A stretch of 33,989 nucleotides of DNA from Alphaproteobacteria bacterium (GTDB lineage: Bacteria > Pseudomonadota > Alphaproteobacteria > Micropepsales > Micropepsaceae): positions 1 to 33,989 of the forward strand of contig JAFAVT010000240.1 in the NCBI GenBank assembly GCA_019242275.1, read 5' to 3'. The notes under the pieces are model-generated. The model saw only the letters and a program-made list of their open reading frames with translations, was not told where the DNA came from and did no database searches. The first letter of the stretch is position 1, and every line of letters starts with the position of its first letter. Positions 22,387-33,989 of this stretch are shown here, in pieces. A program made the translations under genes and the position numbers.

Positions 22387-25300
22387 ATGACCATGAACCC
22401 GCAGCCTCTTGACGAGTCCGGCACCCTGGCGCTCGCCCGCGCCCAACTGACATTTGAGATGCGGGATTTTTTCGATGCCCTCTTTGCCGGCGCCGACACC
22501 GGCGGGCTTGCGGCGCCGGACCTGGCCCTGATCGCCGAACGCGCCCGCGCTACGCTGCTGAATGGCGCGCCGCAAGTAACCTTAAGCGATGCCGGCCGCT
22601 TCAGCTTGCTCACGGCCGTCAATGAGGACCGCCCTTTCCTGTTTGATTCCGCCGTTGCCGCGGCACTCGCCGGCGGCGCCCATCTGCGCAACGTTTTTCA
22701 TCCCATGGTCGCGCTGGGCGGCCGCAAGCTCAGCCTGATCGTCTTTGTCATTGACCCGGTGAGCGATGAGGGCGCCCGCGCCCGGCTGATCGCCGCGCTG
22801 GAGGAATGTTTCACCGCCGGCGCCCTGGCGGTGCGCGACTGGCGCGCCATGCTGGCGCGGCTGAGAGCGGCCCGCGACGGCCTGGCGGCGCAAGGACCGC
22901 AAGGGCGCGACATCGAGGAGGACATCGCCTTCCTGGACTGGCTGGCCGACGATCATTTCACCTTTCTGGGCGCGCGCGAATATCGTCTGGCAGACGATGG
23001 AATGAACGGGACCTTGTCGGCCGTGGAAGGCAGCGGCCTTGGCGTCCTGTCCGATCCTGAGGCGCGGATATTGGGCAGCAACAGCACGGGGCCACGTCCC
23101 GGCCTTTCCGCCGAGGTGCGCACCTATCTGGAATCGAATGGCCCGCTGATCGTCAGCAAGTCCAGCAGCCGCTCGGTGGTGCACCGGCGCGTCCACATGG
23201 ATTATGTCGGCGTCAAAATTTACGATCGGAGCGGTCGCTTCTGCGGCGAGCACCGCTTTGTCGGCCTGTTCACGTCCAGTGCCTATGCCGCAAATCCCCG
23301 CCAGATTCCCCTGCTCCGCCGCAAGCTCGCGGCCGTGACGGCCCGCATCGGGCTTGATCCGCGCAGCCATGACGGCAAGGCGCTGGCGCATATTCTCGAA
23401 TCTTATCCGCGCGACGAACTGTTCCAGGTCTCGGAAGCAGAATTGGCCGATACCGCGCTGGGCATCACCCGTCTTTCCGGCCTGCCCCGCACCAAGCTGT
23501 TTCTTCGCTTTGACCGCTTCGATCGTTTCGCCTCGGCGCTGTTGTTCGCGCCCCGCGATCACATGACGGCGCAGTCACGCGAACGCATTCACCAGATTCT
23601 GGCCAAGGCCTTGAACGGGCGCGCCAGCGCCGCCGAAGTCGGCCTGGATGAAGGGCCGCTGGTGCGGGTGCATTACATCATCGGCCGCAATCCCGGTGCG
23701 CGCCCCAATGTTGATCTTGAGTCTCTTCAGGCTGAAATCACAAAGGCGCTGGAAACCTGGGACGATGCCCTGATCGGCGCGCTTTGTGCCGCCCATGGCG
23801 AGGTTGAAGGCCCCGCCATGGCCACGCGCCTGGCGCCGGATTTTCCAGCCACCTATCGCGGCGCCTTTGGCGCCGCCGATGCCGCCCGCGATCTGGACGT
23901 GCTGGTGGCGCTGGCGGACCAGGCCCTGAAAGTGCGCGCCGCTGCCTGGCGCAAGCCCGACGACGAAGCTGATGTCGTGCGGCTGAAACTCTATGTCCTG
24001 GGCGAAGTGCTGCCTTTGTCGCAGACCCTGCCCATGTTTGAAAATTGCGGCCTCACCGTCATCGCCGAAGACGCCTTCCCGGTTTCCTTCCGTCGCGATG
24101 ACGCACGCCGGCACGGCATGGTGCTGGATTTCCTGATGACCTGCGAGGATGCGGCCGATCTTGCCCGCATCCGCCAGCCACTGGAAGATGTGCTGCATGC
24201 GGTGCTGGCCGGTGCAGCGGAAAATGACGGCTTCAACCGGCTGGTGATGGCCGCTGATCTTTCCTGGCGCCAGGCGGTAATCCTGCGGGCCGCCGCCAAA
24301 TATCTGCGCCAAGCCGGGTTTGCTTTCAGCCTCGCCTATATGCAGCAGGCCCTGACCAAGAATCCCGATGTCGCCGGCCTTCTGGTAGAACTGTTCCTTG
24401 CCCGCACCGACCCCGCCCGTGCTGCCGCGCCCAAGGAGGTGGAGCAGATCGAAGCCCGCATCGAAGCGGCGTTGAATAATGTCGCCAGCCTGGATGACGA
24501 CCGCATCATCCGGCGGCTGCGCAATGTCATTCGCAATATCCTGCGCACCAACTATTTCCAGCCCGCTGCGGACGGCGCGCCTAAGCCGGTGCTGTCCTTC
24601 AAGCTGGATTCGGGAAAACTCGATGATCTGCCGGCGCCGCGGCCCTGGCGCGAAATCTTCGTCTATTCGCCGGAAGTGGAAGGCGTGCACCTACGCTTTG
24701 GCCGCATTGCTCGCGGCGGACTTCGTTGGTCTGACCGCCGCGAGGATTTCCGCACCGAGATATTGGGCCTGGTGAAAGCGCAACAGGTGAAGAACGCCGT
24801 CATTGTGCCGGTGGGTGCCAAGGGCGGGTTTTTCCCCAAACAGATGCCGGCCAACCCCACGCGCGAGCAGTTCATGGCGGTGGGCATTTCTGCCTACAAG
24901 ACCTTCATCCAGTCCCTGCTCGACATCACCGACAATCTGGACGCGCACGGCAAGGTGATCCCGCCGGAGAATGTTTTGCGGCCCGATGGCGATGATCCCT
25001 ATCTGGTGGTGGCAGCCGACAAGGGCACGGCCACTTTCTCTGATATCGCCAATGGCATCGCCATCGAACACAATTTCTGGCTGGGCGATGCTTTCGCCAG
25101 CGGCGGCTCCAAGGGCTATGACCACAAGAAAATGGGCATCACCGCCCGCGGCGCCTGGGAAGCGGTCAAGCGTCATTTCCGCGAGATAGGCCGCGATATC
25201 CAGAAGGACGATTTCACCGTCATCGGTGTGGGCGACATGTCGGGCGATGTGTTCGGCAACGGCATGCTGTTGTCGCGCCATATCCGGCTGGTGGCGGCGT

Positions 25301-27033
25301 TTGACCATCGCCATATCTTCCTTGATCCCAACGCGCCCACCGAGGCCGCCTTTGTGGAGCGCGAGCGGCTGTTCAACCTGCCCCGTTCGTCCTGGGACGA
25401 TTACAACAAGGAATTGATCGGCAAGGGTGGCGGTGTTTTTGCCCGCACATGCAAGGAAATCCCGCTTTCTGACGCAGTGAAGGCGCTGATCGGCAGCGGC
25501 AAGGACTCCATGTCGCCGCCGGAGCTGATCAACGCCCTGCTCAAGGCCAAAACCGACCTGCTCTGGTTCGGCGGCATCGGCACCTATATCAAGGCCGCAT
25601 CGCAAAGCCATCTCGACGCCGGTGACCGCGCCAATGATGCCGTGCGCATCAATGGCGGCGAGGTCAAGGCGCTGGTGGTGGGCGAAGGCGCCAATCTGGG
25701 CGTGACCCAACTGGGCCGCATCGAGGCCGCTCGCGCTGGTGTGCGCATTGACACCGACGCGGTGGACAATTCCGCCGGCGTGGACACGTCCGACCATGAA
25801 GTGAATCTGAAAATTCTGCTTTCCGGCCCCTCGCGCCGCGGCGAGCTTTCCGACGACAAGCGTGACAGTTTGTTGGCTGCCATGACCGATGATGTGGCTG
25901 GGCTGGTGCTGGCCGACAATTACGACCAGACTCTGGCCCTGTCGGTGGCGCAGCATAACGGCGTGCACGACCTTGACGCCGATGCACGGCTGATTGCCGA
26001 CCTGGAAGCCCGCGGGCGCCTCGACCGGGCGGTGGAATTCTTGCCTTCGCCGGCCGAGCTGAAAAAGCTTGGGCATAACGGCGCCGGTCTCACCAGGCCT
26101 GAACTGGCGGTGCTCCTGGCCTATGCCAAGCTGGACCTGGATGCCGAACTGCTGGAAAGCGATCTGCCGTCAGACCCGGCGCTGCACGACCTCCTCATCA
26201 CCTATTTCCCGCCCGCCGTCATCGAAGCCTTCCCTGCCGAGGCCGACCGCCATCGCCTGAAGAAGGAGATCATTTCCACCGTCCTGACCAACCGGCTGGT
26301 CAATCTGGCCGGACCCGCTTTCGTGCTGCGGATGAAGGAATTGTCGGGCCGCAGCGCCGCCGATGTGGCGCGCGCCTTTGTCATCGCCGACGCTGCCTTT
26401 GATCTTTCGGCGTTGAAGCACCGCATTGACGGACTGGACGGCAAGACCAAGGCCGAAGCGCAGATCGCGCTTTATGCCGCCATCGCTGAGCACCTGCAGC
26501 GGGTGACGCCCGCCCTGCTGGCGGCGCAGGATCAGGACATTGTGGCTGCCATCGCGCTCTATCGCGGCGCAGTGGGAGCGCTGCGCGCGCGCCTTAACCC
26601 GCCGGACGGCGCCGACGAGATTGCGGGCGAGGTTGGGCTGCTGCCGGCGTTGGCCATCGCGCCGGCGATTGCGCGCCTGGCTGCCGGCGCCAAGGCCGAT
26701 CCCGCCCGTGCTGCCACCCTGTATGAGGCGGTGGGTGCCAAGCTGGGTCTGGAGCGGCTGCGCAGTTTGGCCGCCAAACTCAACCTGCCGGAGCATTGGG
26801 ACCGGCTGGCGGTGCGCCGCCTGCTGGACGATCTTGCCGCCGCACAAGCCGCGCTCACGGCGCGGCTGCTCAAGGCCGAACAACCGGGCGAGGAAGTGCT
26901 GGAAGATTGGGCGAAGGCGAACCGCGAGGCGCTGGCGCGGATGACCGACTTCCTCCAGGCCATCGAAGCGTCGGGCGAACTCAGCGTGGCCAAGCTGATG
27001 CTGGCGGCGAGTCAGATTCAGAATCTGGCCTGA
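22387..27033 (+). CDS. gdhB: NAD-specific glutamate dehydrogenase, large (GDH2/GdhB) class
   Basis: 1548 aa; GGLRWSDRREDFRTEILGLVKAQQVKNAVIVPVGAKGGFFPK, VVAADKGTATFSDIANGIA, FTVIGVGDMSGDVFGNGMLLS, LLWFGGIGTYIKA. Confidence 0.97.
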   Translation: MTMNPQPLDESGTLALARAQLTFEMRDFFDALFAGADTGGLAAPDLALIAERARATLLNGAPQVTLSDAGRFSLLTAVNEDRPFLFDSAVAAALAGGAHLRNVFHPMVALGGRKLSLIVFVIDPVSDEGARARLIAALEECFTAGALAVRDWRAMLARLRAARDGLAAQGPQGRDIEEDIAFLDWLADDHFTFLGAREYRLADDGMNGTLSAVEGSGLGVLSDPEARILGSNSTGPRPGLSAEVRTYLESNGPLIVSKSSSRSVVHRRVHMDYVGVKIYDRSGRFCGEHRFVGLFTSSAYAANPRQIPLLRRKLAAVTARIGLDPRSHDGKALAHILESYPRDELFQVSEAELADTALGITRLSGLPRTKLFLRFDRFDRFASALLFAPRDHMTAQSRERIHQILAKALNGRASAAEVGLDEGPLVRVHYIIGRNPGARPNVDLESLQAEITKALETWDDALIGALCAAHGEVEGPAMATRLAPDFPATYRGAFGAADAARDLDVLVALADQALKVRAAAWRKPDDEADVVRLKLYVLGEVLPLSQTLPMFENCGLTVIAEDAFPVSFRRDDARRHGMVLDFLMTCEDAADLARIRQPLEDVLHAVLAGAAENDGFNRLVMAADLSWRQAVILRAAAKYLRQAGFAFSLAYMQQALTKNPDVAGLLVELFLARTDPARAAAPKEVEQIEARIEAALNNVASLDDDRIIRRLRNVIRNILRTNYFQPAADGAPKPVLSFKLDSGKLDDLPAPRPWREIFVYSPEVEGVHLRFGRIARGGLRWSDRREDFRTEILGLVKAQQVKNAVIVPVGAKGGFFPKQMPANPTREQFMAVGISAYKTFIQSLLDITDNLDAHGKVIPPENVLRPDGDDPYLVVAADKGTATFSDIANGIAIEHNFWLGDAFASGGSKGYDHKKMGITARGAWEAVKRHFREIGRDIQKDDFTVIGVGDMSGDVFGNGMLLSRHIRLVAAFDHRHIFLDPNAPTEAAFVERERLFNLPRSSWDDYNKELIGKGGGVFARTCKEIPLSDAVKALIGSGKDSMSPPELINALLKAKTDLLWFGGIGTYIKAASQSHLDAGDRANDAVRINGGEVKALVVGEGANLGVTQLGRIEAARAGVRIDTDAVDNSAGVDTSDHEVNLKILLSGPSRRGELSDDKRDSLLAAMTDDVAGLVLADNYDQTLALSVAQHNGVHDLDADARLIADLEARGRLDRAVEFLPSPAELKKLGHNGAGLTRPELAVLLAYAKLDLDAELLESDLPSDPALHDLLITYFPPAVIEAFPAEADRHRLKKEIISTVLTNRLVNLAGPAFVLRMKELSGRSAADVARAFVIADAAFDLSALKHRIDGLDGKTKAEAQIALYAAIAEHLQRVTPALLAAQDQDIVAAIALYRGAVGALRARLNPPDGADEIAGEVGLLPALAIAPAIARLAAGAKADPARAATLYEAVGAKLGLERLRSLAAKLNLPEHWDRLAVRRLLDDLAAAQAALTARLLKAEQPGEEVLEDWAKANREALARMTDFLQAIEASGELSVAKLMLAASQIQNLA

Positions 27034-27129: not shown

Positions 27130-27507
27130 ATGTCCCGCTTAGCCTTGGCTGTCTTCGCATTGACTGTTTCCGCCCTGCCGGCGCTGGCCGCCGCCGCCCC
27201 GACGGAAGCGGACGTGAAAACGGTGATTGAAAAAATCAGCGCCGGCAAGGATAGCGATTTCACTTTCCGCAGCGTGCAGATCGCCAAACCGCGGCCGGCC
27301 TCGTCCGGCGAAATCCGCGCCGTCGCCCTGCCCGGCAAGATCACGGTGGTGCCGGTGAAGGCGGATTTTACCCAGGCCACCAGCGCCCATGATGGCCGCG
27401 ACCACGTCCAGAACTATCTTTTCTTTAAAGACGATTTCGGCGCCTGGTCGGCCCAGGCGATTTCCGTGCCAGGCAATTACACCAGCGAGCTGAAAAAGGT
27501 GCGGTAA
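27130..27507 (+). CDS. Small secreted hypothetical protein
   Basis: Signal peptide MSRLALAVFALTVSALPALAAAA; 125 aa. Confidence 0.7.
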   Translation: MSRLALAVFALTVSALPALAAAAPTEADVKTVIEKISAGKDSDFTFRSVQIAKPRPASSGEIRAVALPGKITVVPVKADFTQATSAHDGRDHVQNYLFFKDDFGAWSAQAISVPGNYTSELKKVR

Positions 27508-27596: not shown

Positions 27597-29522
27597 GTGT
27601 CGGAAGACTTACAAGCGCCGGAAAGCGGCGCCGGGACTGCATCGGCCGACGCGGCCGCACTGGCCCTGTCGCTGAGCGGGGCCAGCCGCGGCAAGGCTGA
27701 TGCTTTTCTTGACGAGCAACGCGCATGGATGGCGGACCAACGCCATCATCTGCACGAACAGCAGAAACAGCTTGCTCCCAGGCTGTGGGAATTGCGCATG
27801 GGCGTGCTGCTGCGCGTGGCCACCGCGTTTGTCGGGCTGGCGATCGCCGGCGCCGCCATCTTCATGGTGTGGGATGCCAGCCGCAGCAGCCGGCTGCTGG
27901 TCGAGCCGTTTTCGGTGCCGCCGGAACTGGCGGCGCGTGGGCTGACCGGTGAAGTGGTGGCGGGGCGGCTTCTGGCCCGCATCCGCGCCTTTCCGGCCCA
28001 GACCAATACCGCCCGCGCGCCGCGCTCCTTCGCCAACAGTTGGAGCCAGAAAGACCTGCGCGTCGAAATCCCGGAAACCGGGGTCTCGCTGGGCCAGATT
28101 GACAGTTACCTGCGCGAAAGGCTGGGCCATGACACCCATATCAGCGGCGAAATCGTCAGTGGCGCGAGTGGGTTGACGCTGTCGGCGCGGGCCGATGGGG
28201 ATGAAGCGGGCACGATCGCCGGCAGCGAGGCTGATCTCGACACACTGGTCGGAAAGCTGGCGGAAGCTATCTACAAACAGACCCAGCCTTATCTCTATGC
28301 CTCCTGGCTTGGCTCCCATGGCCGCGGGCCGGAGGCGATCGCGATTTTCCGCGATCTGGCCGAGAACGGCCCGGCGGCAGAGCGGCCCTGGGCCTATCTG
28401 GGCTGGGGACTTCAGGTGCGCGACACGCTGGGCTGGTCGGCGGCACTCGCATTGATGGACCAGGCCGTGGCGCTCGCGCCGGACAATGTTCCGGTGCGCT
28501 ATGAGCATGCGCTGCTGCTCTACCAGATGGGAGGGGCGGAAAAGGGATTGGCCGCTATTCGAGAAGCGCTGGCGCTGCCGGTGACCGGCAAGGACACGAT
28601 TCCCGCCCAGATGGCTTCCCGCCAGGGTTCGGCGCGCGCGACGATGGACAACGCCAAGGGAGCCTATCTGGAGGCGCTGGGAGAATACGCCAAATACATG
28701 CGTGACCCCGAGGCACAACGGGTCGGGACGACTGCCGGTGTCGCTGGGACACATTTGGCCCTGCATGATCTCAAGGCGGCCCGGGCCATGCTGGCCAACC
28801 CGATCCGGGTGAACGCCGTCATCGGCGTCGGCGCGATGGAACTGCGTGACATCCAGCAGCCTATGCAGGTGGATCTCGCCAGTGAAGATTGGGCCGGTGT
28901 CGTGGCGCGCGCGGCGCAGATAGGCCCCGTTCTCGCCCGCTATCCGGGCCTTCGCGAGATGTATATCCTTTTGGTATCGCCCGTGCTTGCTCCGGCACAG
29001 GCGCGGCTGGGCCGCTTTGCCGAGGCAGAGGCCACGCTGCGTCCGACGCCGGCCGACTGCTATCGCTGTCTGATTGCCCGCGCCCAGGTCGCCGAGATAG
29101 AGGGCCAGCATGAACGGGCCGACTGGTGGTTTGCCCGCGCCGCATCGCAAGGGCCCTCACTGCCGCATGCCGGGTATGCCTGGGGCCGGGTGCTGCTGGA
29201 TCGCGGCAAGCCGGATGACGCCATCGCGCAATTCACCCTCGCCAACAAAAAGGGGCCGCACTTCGCCGACGCGCTGGAGGGCTGGGGCGAATCGCTGATG
29301 GCGAAGAACCAGTCGCATCTGGCCTTGGCCAAGTTCGCGGAAGCGGAGAAGTACGCCCCCAATTGGGGCCGGCTGCACCTGAAATGGGGCGAGGCACTTT
29401 ATTACGCGGGCAAGCGCGCCGAAGCGAAGGCGCAATTCGCCCGCGCTTCGCAACTCGACCTGACGCCCGCCGAAAAAGCCGAACTGGCGAGACAGAGTGG
29501 GCCGCAGAGAAACAGACCATGA
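27597..29522 (+). CDS. Membrane-anchored TPR protein, tandem paralogue 1
   Basis: GTG start; HHLHEQ + TM + VEPFSVPPELAARGLTGEVVA + VEIPETGVSLGQ + DCYRC + C-terminal TPR modules. Confidence 0.88.
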   Translation: MSEDLQAPESGAGTASADAAALALSLSGASRGKADAFLDEQRAWMADQRHHLHEQQKQLAPRLWELRMGVLLRVATAFVGLAIAGAAIFMVWDASRSSRLLVEPFSVPPELAARGLTGEVVAGRLLARIRAFPAQTNTARAPRSFANSWSQKDLRVEIPETGVSLGQIDSYLRERLGHDTHISGEIVSGASGLTLSARADGDEAGTIAGSEADLDTLVGKLAEAIYKQTQPYLYASWLGSHGRGPEAIAIFRDLAENGPAAERPWAYLGWGLQVRDTLGWSAALALMDQAVALAPDNVPVRYEHALLLYQMGGAEKGLAAIREALALPVTGKDTIPAQMASRQGSARATMDNAKGAYLEALGEYAKYMRDPEAQRVGTTAGVAGTHLALHDLKAARAMLANPIRVNAVIGVGAMELRDIQQPMQVDLASEDWAGVVARAAQIGPVLARYPGLREMYILLVSPVLAPAQARLGRFAEAEATLRPTPADCYRCLIARAQVAEIEGQHERADWWFARAASQGPSLPHAGYAWGRVLLDRGKPDDAIAQFTLANKKGPHFADALEGWGESLMAKNQSHLALAKFAEAEKYAPNWGRLHLKWGEALYYAGKRAEAKAQFARASQLDLTPAEKAELARQSGPQRNRP

Positions 29523-29554
29523 CAAAGCACCGGCCCGCCCCTCTGAAATACAAT

Positions 29555-29642
29555 TGTCATGGCCCGGCTCGCCCGGGCCATCCAGAGTCCGAAGCACCGG
29601 TGCATGGGATTCTGGATGGCCCACGTAAAGTGGGCCATGACA
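29555..29642. repeat. REP/BIME-like element, copy A
   Basis: TGTCATGGCCCGGCTCGCCCGGGCCATCCAGA...TCTGGATGGCCCACGTAAAGTGGGCCATGACA. Confidence 0.8.
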
Positions 29643-29661
29643 GTTGGGGGGAAATCCGCCC

Positions 29662-31614
29662 ATGAGCGAAGACACGGACGCTCCAGAATCTGGCTCCGCC
29701 CCCGACACCAGCAGCCTGGCCATAGACCTTGCCATGGAGGAAGCGCGGCGCGATCCCGCCTTGCAGGGCGACGTCGCCCGCTTTTTGCGCAACCAGAATT
29801 CCCTGGTGGATGTGCAGAAACATCATCTGCACGAACAGTTCAAGCAGTTGCGGCTGGCCACGCTCAGCCAGCGCCTCACCATCGCCCTCAAGCTGGCGAC
29901 AGGATTGGTGGGAATTGGCGTCATCGCCGCGCTGGGCATCGCGATGTGGAATGCTGCCCATGCCGGCGGCCTGGTGGTGGAGAGTTTCGCCGTACCGCCC
30001 AAATTCGCCGAGGCCGGCGTCACCGGCGCGGTGGTCTCGGACGACCTCAACAGCAAGCTGGGGACCATCCGCGATCTTTCGGATGCGAACTCGCTGACTC
30101 GCTCCAGCGAGGTCAGCGCAACCCACGACGACGAATTCAGGGTCGAGATTCCGGAGACCGGTGTTTCGCTGGGGCAGGCGTGGCGCTTCCTGCGCCTGTG
30201 GCTGGGACATGAGCGGCGCCTGAGCGGAAATCTGCGCGAACTCCCCGACGGCAGAATCGCGCTGACCGCGACCCTGGCCGGCGCGGATGCCTTCACCGCC
30301 ACCGGCACTGCCGCCGACCTCGACAAGCTGGAGCAGCAGGCCGCCGAGCATGTCTATCAGCAGGTGGATCCCGTCAATTATGGGCAATATCTCGGGCAGG
30401 TGAACCGCCAGGGGGAAATGCTGGCAGCAGGCCAGCGGGCCACCGAACTGGCAAAAACCGACCAACACTGTGCCGAAGCCTTTGGCTACTTTGCATCCGT
30501 AACCGCCGGCACGGGCGATCTTGCGCTGGCCATGAAGCGCAACCAGATAGGGATCGGTTACGATCCGAAGGTGATGCCGGCCTACACCCAGTGGGCCGGC
30601 ATCCTGCTGTTGCTGGGGCACGACGAAGAAGCACTGCAAAAACTGGCTGTACTCCCGACATTGCGCGAGGAGGACCAACCACCCCTGCTGCAGGGGCGTC
30701 CTTTCCTGACGTTGCAGTGGAGAACCGCGCTGGTGCGCGCCCTGGAAATGGGCGACTTCGCGGGTGCGCTGTCGCTCAACTGCGTTGAGTGCACGCTGCT
30801 GTCACAGAAACTGCGCCAGGCCGAGTATGCGGCGCGCGCGCACGATCTTCCGCAAAGCCGGATGCGGCTGGATGAAATCAGCACCCTTTTGCGTGCCCCC
30901 GGCGCTGCCCAGCCCGCGAACTTTTCCGGCATGACAAACAGCGACCTCAACCGCATCGGCTATTACCAGCACGCCGCGCTGGGCCAATGGCGGGAAGCAA
31001 CGGCGGATGCCCGCGCCATCGCGGCGGCAGCCGATTCCCGCAACTTGAAGTATGGACCGCTGCTGGTGTCACGTAGCTGGGCTTATCCGTTGCTGGTGGT
31101 CGCCGAGGCGCGCGGCGGCGATCTGGCCCGCGCGCACGCCGACGCCGATGTCATGCCGGCCGATTGCTACGCCTGCATGCGCGCCCATGGCGTGGTTGCC
31201 GGACTGGAGCATGATGGGGCCGCAACGGATAGCTGGTTCGCGCGCGCGGTGAAGGCGGCGCCGTCCCTTCCCTTTGCCTATGAAGAGTGGGGCCGTGCCC
31301 TGCTGGATCGCGGCAAGCCCGACGAGGCCATCGCGCAGTTCACGTTGGCAAACAAGAAGGGTTCCCACTTCGCCGACCCGCTGGAAGGCTGGGGCGAGGC
31401 GCTGATGGCGAAGAACCAGTCGCATCTGGCGCTTGCGAAATTTGCCGAGGCAGAAAAATACGCGCCGAATTGGAGCCGGCTGCACCTGAAATGGGGTGAA
31501 GCGCTCTTTTACGCCGGCAAGAAGGGAGATGCCGCAAAACAATTCGCCCGCGCCGCGCAGCTTGATCTGACGCCCGCCGAAAAAGCCGAACTGGCAAAGG
31601 CGCCCCATGTCTGA
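29662..31614 (+). CDS. Membrane-anchored TPR protein, tandem paralogue 2
   Basis: HHLHEQFKQL + TM + VESFAVPPKFAEAGVTGAVV + VEIPETGVSLGQ + DCYAC + near-identical C-terminal TPR. Start at MSEDTDAPES. Confidence 0.88.
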   Translation: MSEDTDAPESGSAPDTSSLAIDLAMEEARRDPALQGDVARFLRNQNSLVDVQKHHLHEQFKQLRLATLSQRLTIALKLATGLVGIGVIAALGIAMWNAAHAGGLVVESFAVPPKFAEAGVTGAVVSDDLNSKLGTIRDLSDANSLTRSSEVSATHDDEFRVEIPETGVSLGQAWRFLRLWLGHERRLSGNLRELPDGRIALTATLAGADAFTATGTAADLDKLEQQAAEHVYQQVDPVNYGQYLGQVNRQGEMLAAGQRATELAKTDQHCAEAFGYFASVTAGTGDLALAMKRNQIGIGYDPKVMPAYTQWAGILLLLGHDEEALQKLAVLPTLREEDQPPLLQGRPFLTLQWRTALVRALEMGDFAGALSLNCVECTLLSQKLRQAEYAARAHDLPQSRMRLDEISTLLRAPGAAQPANFSGMTNSDLNRIGYYQHAALGQWREATADARAIAAAADSRNLKYGPLLVSRSWAYPLLVVAEARGGDLARAHADADVMPADCYACMRAHGVVAGLEHDGAATDSWFARAVKAAPSLPFAYEEWGRALLDRGKPDEAIAQFTLANKKGSHFADPLEGWGEALMAKNQSHLALAKFAEAEKYAPNWSRLHLKWGEALFYAGKKGDAAKQFARAAQLDLTPAEKAELAKAPHV

Positions 31615-33676
31615 GGAAGCCGAAGATAGGACCCTCTGCGCGGGAGCGCAGGGTGAGGGCGGGCCTGATCCAGCTTCCATTGCGCTCTCGATAGGCAGCG
31701 CAAGCCGAGAAAGAGCAGACTCGTTCCTTGCAAGGCAGGAACGCCTGACTGCTCTCCAGATCGAGCGTTTGGAAGCGCAGGACCGTCACTTTCATGAAGA
31801 GGCCGAGCTTCAGCTTTCCAACTTGCGTTGGGGCGCCTTCAGCGCCCGCATGAAGGGTGCGCTGCAGATCATGACCGTGCTGGTTGGACTGGCAGTGGTG
31901 TCGGCCGCCGGCGGCATGGTGTGGAGCGCCGCTCATGCCGACGGATTGATCGTCGAGAGCTTCAAGGTTCCGCCGGACCTGGCGGCGAAGGGGCTAACCG
32001 GCGATGTCGTCGCCACCCGCCTGCTGGACCAACTTTCCACCATGCAGGCGCACTCCGTATCGGTCCGTGCCCCCAGCAGCTATGCCAATAACTGGGGCGA
32101 TGATCTGAAGGTGGAGATTCCCGAAACCGGAGTTTCACTCGGCGAGATCAACCGCTATTTGCGCAGCCGGCTGGGGCATGAGACCCACATTTCCGGCGAA
32201 GTCGTGCAATTGGACAGCGGCGGCATCGAGATGACGGTGCGCGCAGGCAACGATACCGCCGAAAGTGTCACCGGCGACACGGCCAATGTGCCTGCCCTGG
32301 TGCAGAAGGCAGCGGAGGCAATCTACGCCCGCACCCAGCCCTTCCGCTACGTCTTCAATCTTTGGGCGCAAGGCCGCGCACAAGAGGCGGAAGCTCTTGC
32401 GCTGGAGCGCACGCAGACAGGCCCAGCCACCGAACGTGCCTGGGCGCATGTTGTTCTTACCGACTCGCTGGTGGAGCAAAACCGGTATGAAGAAGCCATT
32501 CAGGCCGCGCGCCAGGCGACTGTCATTGCGCCTGGACTTGCCGTTGGATGGTTTCGTCTTTCGATCTGGTCCAGCAATCAAGAGGAAAGGCTTGCGGCGG
32601 CAAAAAAAGCGCTGAACCTATTGGCCAGCGCCGCGGATTTGTTGCCCGACAGCCTGATCCAGTTCCAGAACGGCGGGAAACAGACCATTGCCGGCATTCT
32701 CGGCGACTATGACGAAGCCGCGCGCGCCGCTCTTACCACTTTCCCGATGATTGATTTTTCCGCTGACCCGGCAACGCAGATTCGGCAGTCGCGAAGCGCC
32801 ACCGGCGGGGGATTTACCACGCCGTTTTACACACATGCCAACATCGCACAGTACCGGATCAGGCAGCATGACCTTCGCGAAGCCCGGCATGTTCTGGCCG
32901 AGGAGGCCGCCTATCTGGCGGCGCTGAGGAGCAGCAGCGACGCGCTGAACGAGATTCCTCGCCAGGCACTCATCGAACGAGCAGAACAGGACTTCCGCAA
33001 TTTGGAGGTCGCGCTGGCCCTGAGCGCAGAAGAATGGGCGCGCGCAAAACAGCTTCTTTTGGCCCGAGAGGCCGTGGAGGCCAGACTTGCCACTTCCTAT
33101 TCCGGAGGCGCCTATCCGCCAGTCGCACTTTGGCCCGACTTGGCGCTGGCTGAGGCGCAAATGGGAGATTTCGCGGCGGCACACGCGCGGATTGACCGAA
33201 CCCCCACCGACTGCACCCGCTGTCTTCTGGATCGCGCCCAGATTGACAATTTGCAGAAGAATTATGGCGGAGCAGATTTTTGGTTTGCCGCCGCGGTGGC
33301 GAAATTTCCCTCCATTCCCATGCCTTATGCAGAGTGGGCAATATCCTTGTTACAGCGCGGCCAATACGACGACGCCATCGCGCAATTCACCTTGGCGAAC
33401 AGAAAAGGCCCGCACTTCGCCGACCCGCTGGAAGGCTGGGGCGAGGCGCTGATGGCGAAGAACCAATCGCATCTGGCGCTTGCGAAATTTGCCGAGGCAG
33501 AAAAATACGCGCCGAATTGGGGCCGGCTGCACCTGAAATGGGGTGAGGCGCTTTATTACGCGAGCAAGCACGATGAAGCGAAGGCGCAATTCACGCGCGC
33601 TTCGCAACTCGACCTGACGCCCGCCGAAAAAGCCGAACTGGCGAGACAGAGTGGGCCGCAGAGAAACAGACCATGA
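31607..33676 (+). CDS. Membrane-anchored TPR protein, tandem paralogue 3
   Basis: RHFHEE + TM + VESFKVPPDLAAKGLTGDVVATRLL + VEIPETGVSLGE + DCTRC + C-terminal TPR; 8-nt overlap with paralogue 2. Confidence 0.88.
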   Translation: MSEEAEDRTLCAGAQGEGGPDPASIALSIGSASRERADSFLARQERLTALQIERLEAQDRHFHEEAELQLSNLRWGAFSARMKGALQIMTVLVGLAVVSAAGGMVWSAAHADGLIVESFKVPPDLAAKGLTGDVVATRLLDQLSTMQAHSVSVRAPSSYANNWGDDLKVEIPETGVSLGEINRYLRSRLGHETHISGEVVQLDSGGIEMTVRAGNDTAESVTGDTANVPALVQKAAEAIYARTQPFRYVFNLWAQGRAQEAEALALERTQTGPATERAWAHVVLTDSLVEQNRYEEAIQAARQATVIAPGLAVGWFRLSIWSSNQEERLAAAKKALNLLASAADLLPDSLIQFQNGGKQTIAGILGDYDEAARAALTTFPMIDFSADPATQIRQSRSATGGGFTTPFYTHANIAQYRIRQHDLREARHVLAEEAAYLAALRSSSDALNEIPRQALIERAEQDFRNLEVALALSAEEWARAKQLLLAREAVEARLATSYSGGAYPPVALWPDLALAEAQMGDFAAAHARIDRTPTDCTRCLLDRAQIDNLQKNYGGADFWFAAAVAKFPSIPMPYAEWAISLLQRGQYDDAIAQFTLANRKGPHFADPLEGWGEALMAKNQSHLALAKFAEAEKYAPNWGRLHLKWGEALYYASKHDEAKAQFTRASQLDLTPAEKAELARQSGPQRNRP
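31629..31660. repeat. Palindromic repeat inserted in frame in a CDS
   Basis: GGACCCTCTGCGCGGGAGCGCAGGGTGAGGGC, translated as DRTLCAGAQGEGG near the N-terminus of paralogue 3. Confidence 0.55.
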
Positions 33677-33708
33677 CAAAGCACCGGCCTGCCCCTCTGA
33701 AATACAAT

Positions 33709-33796
33709 TGTCATGGCCCGGCTCGCCCGGGCCATCCAGAGTCCGAAGCACCGGTGCATGGGATTCTGGGTGGCCCACGTAAAGTGGGCCATGACA
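33709..33796. repeat. REP/BIME-like element, copy B
   Basis: Near-identical to 29555-29642. Confidence 0.8.
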
Positions 33797-33815
33797 GTTG
33801 GGGGAAAATCCGCCC

Positions 33816-33989
33816 ATGAACGAAGAAGCCACCGTTTCGGAAAATCCGGCTCCCCTGCTGGCCCTGGCCGGCGCCAGCCGCGACAAGGCTGACGCCTATC
33901 TTGAACTTCAGATGGAGGAGATGCGGGCGGAATATCCCTACAAACTCTCGCACCACCGTCTGCGCCGCTTTTCCGATTGGGCCAAGGCG
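33816..33989 (+). CDS. Tandem paralogue 4, N-terminal fragment cut by the window end
   Basis: MNEEATVSENPAPLLALAGASRDKADAYLELQMEEMRAEYPYKLSHHRLRRFSDWAKA, open to the last base. Same upstream sequence as paralogue 2 and N-terminal similarity to paralogue 1 (SGASRGKADAFLDEQ). Confidence 0.8.
   Translation, partial: MNEEATVSENPAPLLALAGASRDKADAYLELQMEEMRAEYPYKLSHHRLRRFSDWAKA

Follow-up and report, generated by a model that had tools for sequence, protein, structure and literature searches.

Tandem arrays of membrane-anchored TPR proteins with a predicted TolB-N-like domain in an alphaproteobacterial genus

The array and its gene junctions

The window, i.e., the whole stretch of DNA that was analysed, is 33,989 nucleotides long and corresponds to positions 1-33989 of contig C284 in the genome of origin (G000); genes were called by means of a simple script based on codon usage. 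Three complete genes and a truncated fourth run head to tail up to its end (Table 1), as the initial annotation had described: the open reading frames of copies A, B and C are real, and the fragment of copy D is supported by matches to the family HMM (E 1.8e-8) and to the N-domain HMM (E 3.7e-12). The start of copy A (VSED..APES) parallels that of copy B (MSED..APES). Upstream of copy A are found a small ORF (27130-27507) and an ORF of 1548 aa (22387-27033), which reads like an NAD-type glutamate dehydrogenase.

Table 1. Features of the array in the window, and loci of the co-arrayed HKPK-WREF family elsewhere in the genome
Feature	Coordinates	Strand	Evidence
Copy A, predicted TM-TolB-like-TPR protein, 641 aa, GTG start	27597..29522	+	ORF, family HMM
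A/B intergenic segment with long palindrome	29523..29661	+	Folding energy; near-identity to C/D segment
Copy B, predicted TM-TolB-like-TPR protein, 650 aa	29662..31614	+	ORF, family HMM
B/C start/stop overlap, 8 bp, ATGTCTGA	31607..31614	+	Sequence
Copy C, predicted TM-TolB-like-TPR protein, 689 aa	31607..33676	+	ORF, family HMM, AlphaFold
Predicted TM segment of C, ~residues 85-108, N-in	31859..31930	+	K+R charge bias
Predicted TolB-N-like domain of C, residues 109-243	31931..32335	+	Domain model, Foldseek
Diverged TPR middle of C, residues 245-500	32339..33106	+	Family identity, modelled helical repeats
C-terminal conserved TPR module of C with DCxxC	33128..33652	+	Family conservation
C/D intergenic segment, near-copy of A/B segment	33677..33815	+	DNA comparison
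Copy D, N-terminal fragment, cut by window end	33816..33989	+	HMM matches
HKPK-WREF loci in G000	L086:1785-6858 (C213), L088:3-6582 (C254), L091:2800-5233 (C176), L092:8488-10694 (C68)		

An overlap of 8 bp is present at 37 of the 63 junctions between family genes, with the octamer ATGGCTGA in 25 of those 37, and, judging from these junctions, the copies are translationally coupled, mostly through this overlap. The A/B and C/D intergenic segments are 97.9% identical over 142 nt; the former folds at -78.1 kcal/mol (z -5.95), and a strong palindrome is also found in the latter. These palindromic segments (29520-29661 and 33674-33815) could be mRNA processing or attenuation hairpins, or a repeat element.

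Protein anatomy and the predicted fold

The family proteins share a general plan, in which a short cytoplasmic N-terminus is followed by one TM helix (N-in), a domain of ~140 residues and a TPR superhelix that extends to the C-terminus, and this anatomy can be held with great confidence. In a charge and topology survey of 81 members, the mean K+R count was 3.06 before the TM helix and 0.48 after it, with an inside excess in 75 of the 81, and no second TM-like segment was seen; an N-in, C-out topology, with the TPR part in the periplasm, is thus the probable one.

The mean pairwise identity among 75 full-length members reaches 0.46 for the post-TM domain and 0.56 for the C-terminal module but falls to 0.22 for the middle, and the corresponding ranges between copies A, B and C are 0.38-0.54, 0.64-0.72 and 0.16-0.25, so that the far greater divergence of the middle, observed initially in the window, holds for the family. 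Both motifs quoted in the initial annotation for the post-TM domain also proved to be family-wide, and P172, G175, S177 and G190 are present in at least 73 of the 75 members. The sequence H[HF][LH]xE, on the other hand, which had been taken as the end of the N-terminus, is neither located there nor family-wide, the consensus being LxxQxxLxxLQ. The C-terminal module carries tryptophan-rich repeats and a near-invariant DCxxC, which was rejected as a haem c site, given that no His follows it.

Membership of the TPR superfamily is borne out by 34-residue helical repeats that score above the curated Pfam cut-offs (in brackets) in copy A, with TPR_14 at 26.5 bits (23.5) and TPR_19 at 25.9 (25), and in copy C, with TPR_2 at 29.7 (27), copy B being just under its cut-off at 25.4 bits (27). 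The TPR-like repeats of the initial annotation are therefore present, but they are not C-terminal alone, as helical pairs span residues ~245 to 682 in the model of copy C.

No informative match to the whole protein was obtained from Pfam, NCBIfam, PHROGs or PADLOC, and these searches thus place it in no well-characterised family; a literature search found no report of a TPR-TolB-like array family. A match to DUF2158 on copy C, seen in one of 38 members and covering ~26 residues, was treated as chance, and the NCBIfam matches to PilW, PrsT, LcrH and MamA were generic to TPRs and far under their cut-offs.

Modelling, which the initial annotation had recommended, was applied to copy C and to the domain. 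The AlphaFold model of full-length C (81 alignment rows) is confident, with a mean pLDDT of 89.2 and a pTM of 0.84, and consists of a disordered start, a single helix (34-109) that is unbroken across the coil and the TM segment, an alpha/beta domain (114-243), and helices up to residue 682, which form a continuous TPR superhelix resembling those of OGT and APC/C. Such a long superhelix is common to the family, the OGT TPR domain and the APC/C subunits, although the family proteins have no catalytic domain and are predicted to be periplasmic and membrane-anchored.

The separate model of the domain (159 residues, with 38 relatives) reached a pLDDT of 86, and all of its Foldseek matches of ranks 1-12 were TolB, the best with E 3.2e-4, probability 1.00 and TMq 0.49. 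The model suggests that the post-TM domain has a TolB-N-like fold, a claim made at the level of the fold, with a TM-score of only 0.49; the domain that had been called uncharacterised is thus indeed without a Pfam model, but its fold is recognisable. The predicted fold resembles that of the N-terminal domain of TolB (PF04052), from the Tol-Pal system, whereas a sequence match to PF04052 was found neither in copies A-C nor in the 38 domain members, the score of the profile comparison with true TolB_N was not above those of shuffles, and the model of C has no beta-propeller, being all-helical past residue 225. A true TolB gene exists separately in the same genome (contig C213).

The order of a TolB-like domain followed by TPRs, with a TM segment ahead in several cases, is also that of CadC-like HTH proteins and class III cyclases (L166, L171, L172), from which the family differs by its lack of an N-terminal effector and of recognisable VLPF/EGSVR motifs, and by its tandem arrays, coupled starts and own conserved C-terminal module. 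One TM-TolB-like-TPR gene of this CadC-like/cyclase type is located 95 bp downstream of an array in the same genome (L084:5722-7461). A different alphaproteobacterial genome, G042 (e.g., L186-L198), has 47 matches to a TolB-like-TPR protein, possibly another expanded family built in this way.

By analogy with CadC-like or cyclase proteins of similar layout, minus the fused effector, the family could be one of transmembrane sensors, in which the periplasmic TolB-like/TPR part would sense a ligand or the state of the envelope and signal through the TM segment to the cytoplasmic coil. This reading draws on the N-terminal regions of the relatives' TolB-like-TPR proteins, which read by eye as HTH or cyclase, on the single helix through the coil and the TM segment, and on a weak, register-correct hhalign similarity to VLPF-type TolB-like domains (23.2 versus a maximum of 22.0 in shuffles, and 20.5 versus 18.6, with 60 shuffles each). 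However, neither Pfam nor NCBIfam has a model that matches the N-terminal ~85 residues, there is no fused HTH, cyclase or other effector, a search of six genomes with the N-terminal domain on its own recovered only the family itself and a decayed remnant in G440, and no regulator is constantly adjacent to the arrays; a sensor role therefore appears rather doubtful.

Distribution and evolution of the copies

The family hardly occurs outside one alphaproteobacterial genus, within which the domain was matched in 29 of 69 genomes, with 1-24 copies each. The genome of origin has 24 matches, on 11 contigs, and genome G004 has 13 consecutive copies, which confirms the multi-copy arrays expected in relatives. 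In a sample of 385 genomes of the class, distant TM-domain-TPR proteins were found in five other genomes, and the C-terminal module was not found at E<=1e-20 outside the genome of origin among the 190 class genomes searched. A distant relative with the same TM-domain-TPR layout, L243 (G490), was retrieved outside the class, in the same phylum, using a wider profile (domain E 2.3e-26). Several contigs of G000 (C284, C44, C46, C114, C176, C182 and C254) end inside family genes, and the true array lengths in this genome are therefore underestimated.

At the DNA level, the final ~200 nt of the alignment of copies A and C, which take in non-coding sequence, show 98-99% identity, against ~45-60% in the middle. 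Given that coding constraint cannot account for the identity of these ends and of the intergenic segments, the most economical explanation is gene conversion or unequal crossing-over. The identity within and between genomes is, respectively, 0.668 and 0.568 in the C-terminal part (0.70 versus 0.56 in the genome of origin), 0.374 and 0.327 in the N-terminal part, 0.474 and 0.464 in the TolB-like domain, and 0.217 and 0.215 in the middle, so that copies from the same genome resemble each other more at their N- and C-terminal ends, which appears to be due partly to gene conversion. The pattern of a constant anchor and C-terminal module around a diverged centre is thus upheld, but the constancy of the C-terminus does not reflect functional constraint alone, since part of it is homogenisation of the DNA.

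Orthologues are recognisable across species by the TolB-like domain and the middle together, with identities of 0.55-0.87 and 0.40-0.84, respectively, whereas the middles of paralogues are ~0.22 identical on average. As orthologues share their middles far more closely than paralogues do, the subtypes are old and kept by selection. In ortholog pairs, dN/dS is 0.18-0.53 for the middle and below 1 in every region, and ongoing positive selection in the middle, considered as a candidate, was not seen in these pairs. The central region is thus not hypervariable at present, contrary to the diversification proposed initially, given that its orthologues are up to 84% identical and under purifying selection. 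A scaffold or receptor set, in which the middle would give specificity, is a plausible candidate reading.

Deletion products, fragments and remnants of family genes also exist. In G004, one open frame of 1305 aa (L096:1863-5765) holds two family copies in tandem, and at L099:8372-8773 an internally deleted copy, with the N-terminus and TM segment joined to the last residues, has an 8-bp overlap with a permease-like gene.

These products, together with the near-identity of the A/C ends and intergenic segments and the range of 0-24 copies within one genus, raise the possibility that the arrays grew mainly as a by-product of recombination at the conserved DNA of the C-terminus, junction and N-terminus, with many copies redundant or decaying. 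Such an account is unlikely, since the middles shared by orthologues have been kept in different species by purifying selection, and the majority of copies are intact open frames whose starts are coupled.

Neighbouring genes and the proposed role

The genes found on the same strand directly downstream of the arrays encode APC (amino-acid) permeases at 12 loci, POT transporters at two and an MFS transporter at one, as well as DUF885, likely prolyl oligopeptidase and other hydrolases at four loci, and many of these genes share 4 or 8 bp with the end of the last gene of the array. In G027 and G028, for instance, 2-3 copies precede an APC permease gene. Representatives of these neighbours were confirmed through Pfam, and the others were assigned from their clustering with those representatives or from a reading of their sequences, with the peptidase labels other than DUF885 taken from the reading of sequence starts, without a library match. 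The family is present in 16 of the 21 genomes with the permease and in 13 of the 48 others (p=2e-4, uncorrected for phylogeny), several of the permease and neighbour loci being syntenic and thus not independent. The association is not obligatory, as the permease is absent from 13 of the 29 family genomes, and the contig that carries the best permease match in the genome of origin has no family gene detected on it. A sulfite-reductase-like cluster, recognised by reading upstream at several loci, is divergently transcribed and was not counted as a partner.

In the genome of origin, six arrays run, directly or past one small gene, into genes of a second tandem family, here called HKPK-WREF, with 37 matches. 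Its proteins, of ~250 aa with one likely TM segment, have the constant N-terminus MEIHKPKPxHxWREFLKEYAIIVLGVxTALAAEQ and a diverged C-terminal part, and match no Pfam or NCBIfam model. The two families share six contigs in this genome (p=7e-8), and the nine of 69 genus genomes with HKPK-WREF all have the TPR family (9/9; p=2e-4, uncorrected for phylogeny), no HKPK-WREF match being found in the other genomes among 190 of the class.

We tentatively favour the possibility that the family is an anchored periplasmic docking repertoire, of adaptors or receptors, for envelope or uptake systems. In this view, the family is restricted to the genus and evolves by birth and death of its copies. Its proteins are predicted to cross the inner membrane once, by a TM helix that leads from a short cytoplasmic coil to a periplasmic part made up of the TolB-N-like domain and the long TPR superhelix. 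Each subtype would bind a client of its own through the TolB-like domain and the TPR middle, while the conserved TPR end at the C-terminus would engage a partner common to all the copies in the cell, an argument that is weakened by the origin of the C-terminal constancy partly in DNA homogenisation. The complexes may act on behalf of envelope or nutrient-uptake machinery whose genes are adjacent to theirs; in several species this would consist of peptidases and of permeases for amino acids and peptides, and in the genome of origin of the HKPK-WREF membrane proteins arrayed with the family. We infer for the family this localisation, the binding of clients and a partner, and the uptake or envelope role.

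Both co-arrayed families are restricted to the genus, and each combines conserved ends or anchor with a diverged ectodomain. It is conceivable, but distinctly unlikely, that the two jointly make up a periplasmic recognition system of an undescribed kind, expandable and recombined at the gene junctions. Lineage-restricted arrays with diverged centres and conserved ends, accompanied by a second family with diverged ectodomains, might also be expected of a system for conflict or recognition, such as kin recognition, anti-phage defence or polymorphic immunity, with foreign molecules recognised by the diverged TPRs of the middle. This is highly improbable, given that there was no PADLOC match and no informative PHROG match, no toxin or nuclease was recognised among the neighbours examined, and no positive selection was detected in ortholog pairs.

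A family without a whole-protein Pfam or NCBIfam model thus fills ~1.5% of this genome (24 copies x ~1.95 kb in 3.04 Mb). Its unnamed domain can now be assigned a plausible fold, and the family itself is linked with permeases, with peptidases and with another uncharacterised family arrayed alongside it. The junctions indicate that homogenised DNA at coupled gene boundaries can keep the ends of proteins alike while old central specificities last, a point of relevance to other families that form arrays. The two dozen or so related genes of this soil-type alphaproteobacterium, each encoding an anchored protein whose long periplasmic arm is predicted to bind other proteins, become, in this way, a defined protein repertoire for testing and, if the docking model is true, would provide a tractable natural set of TPR variants with different clients.
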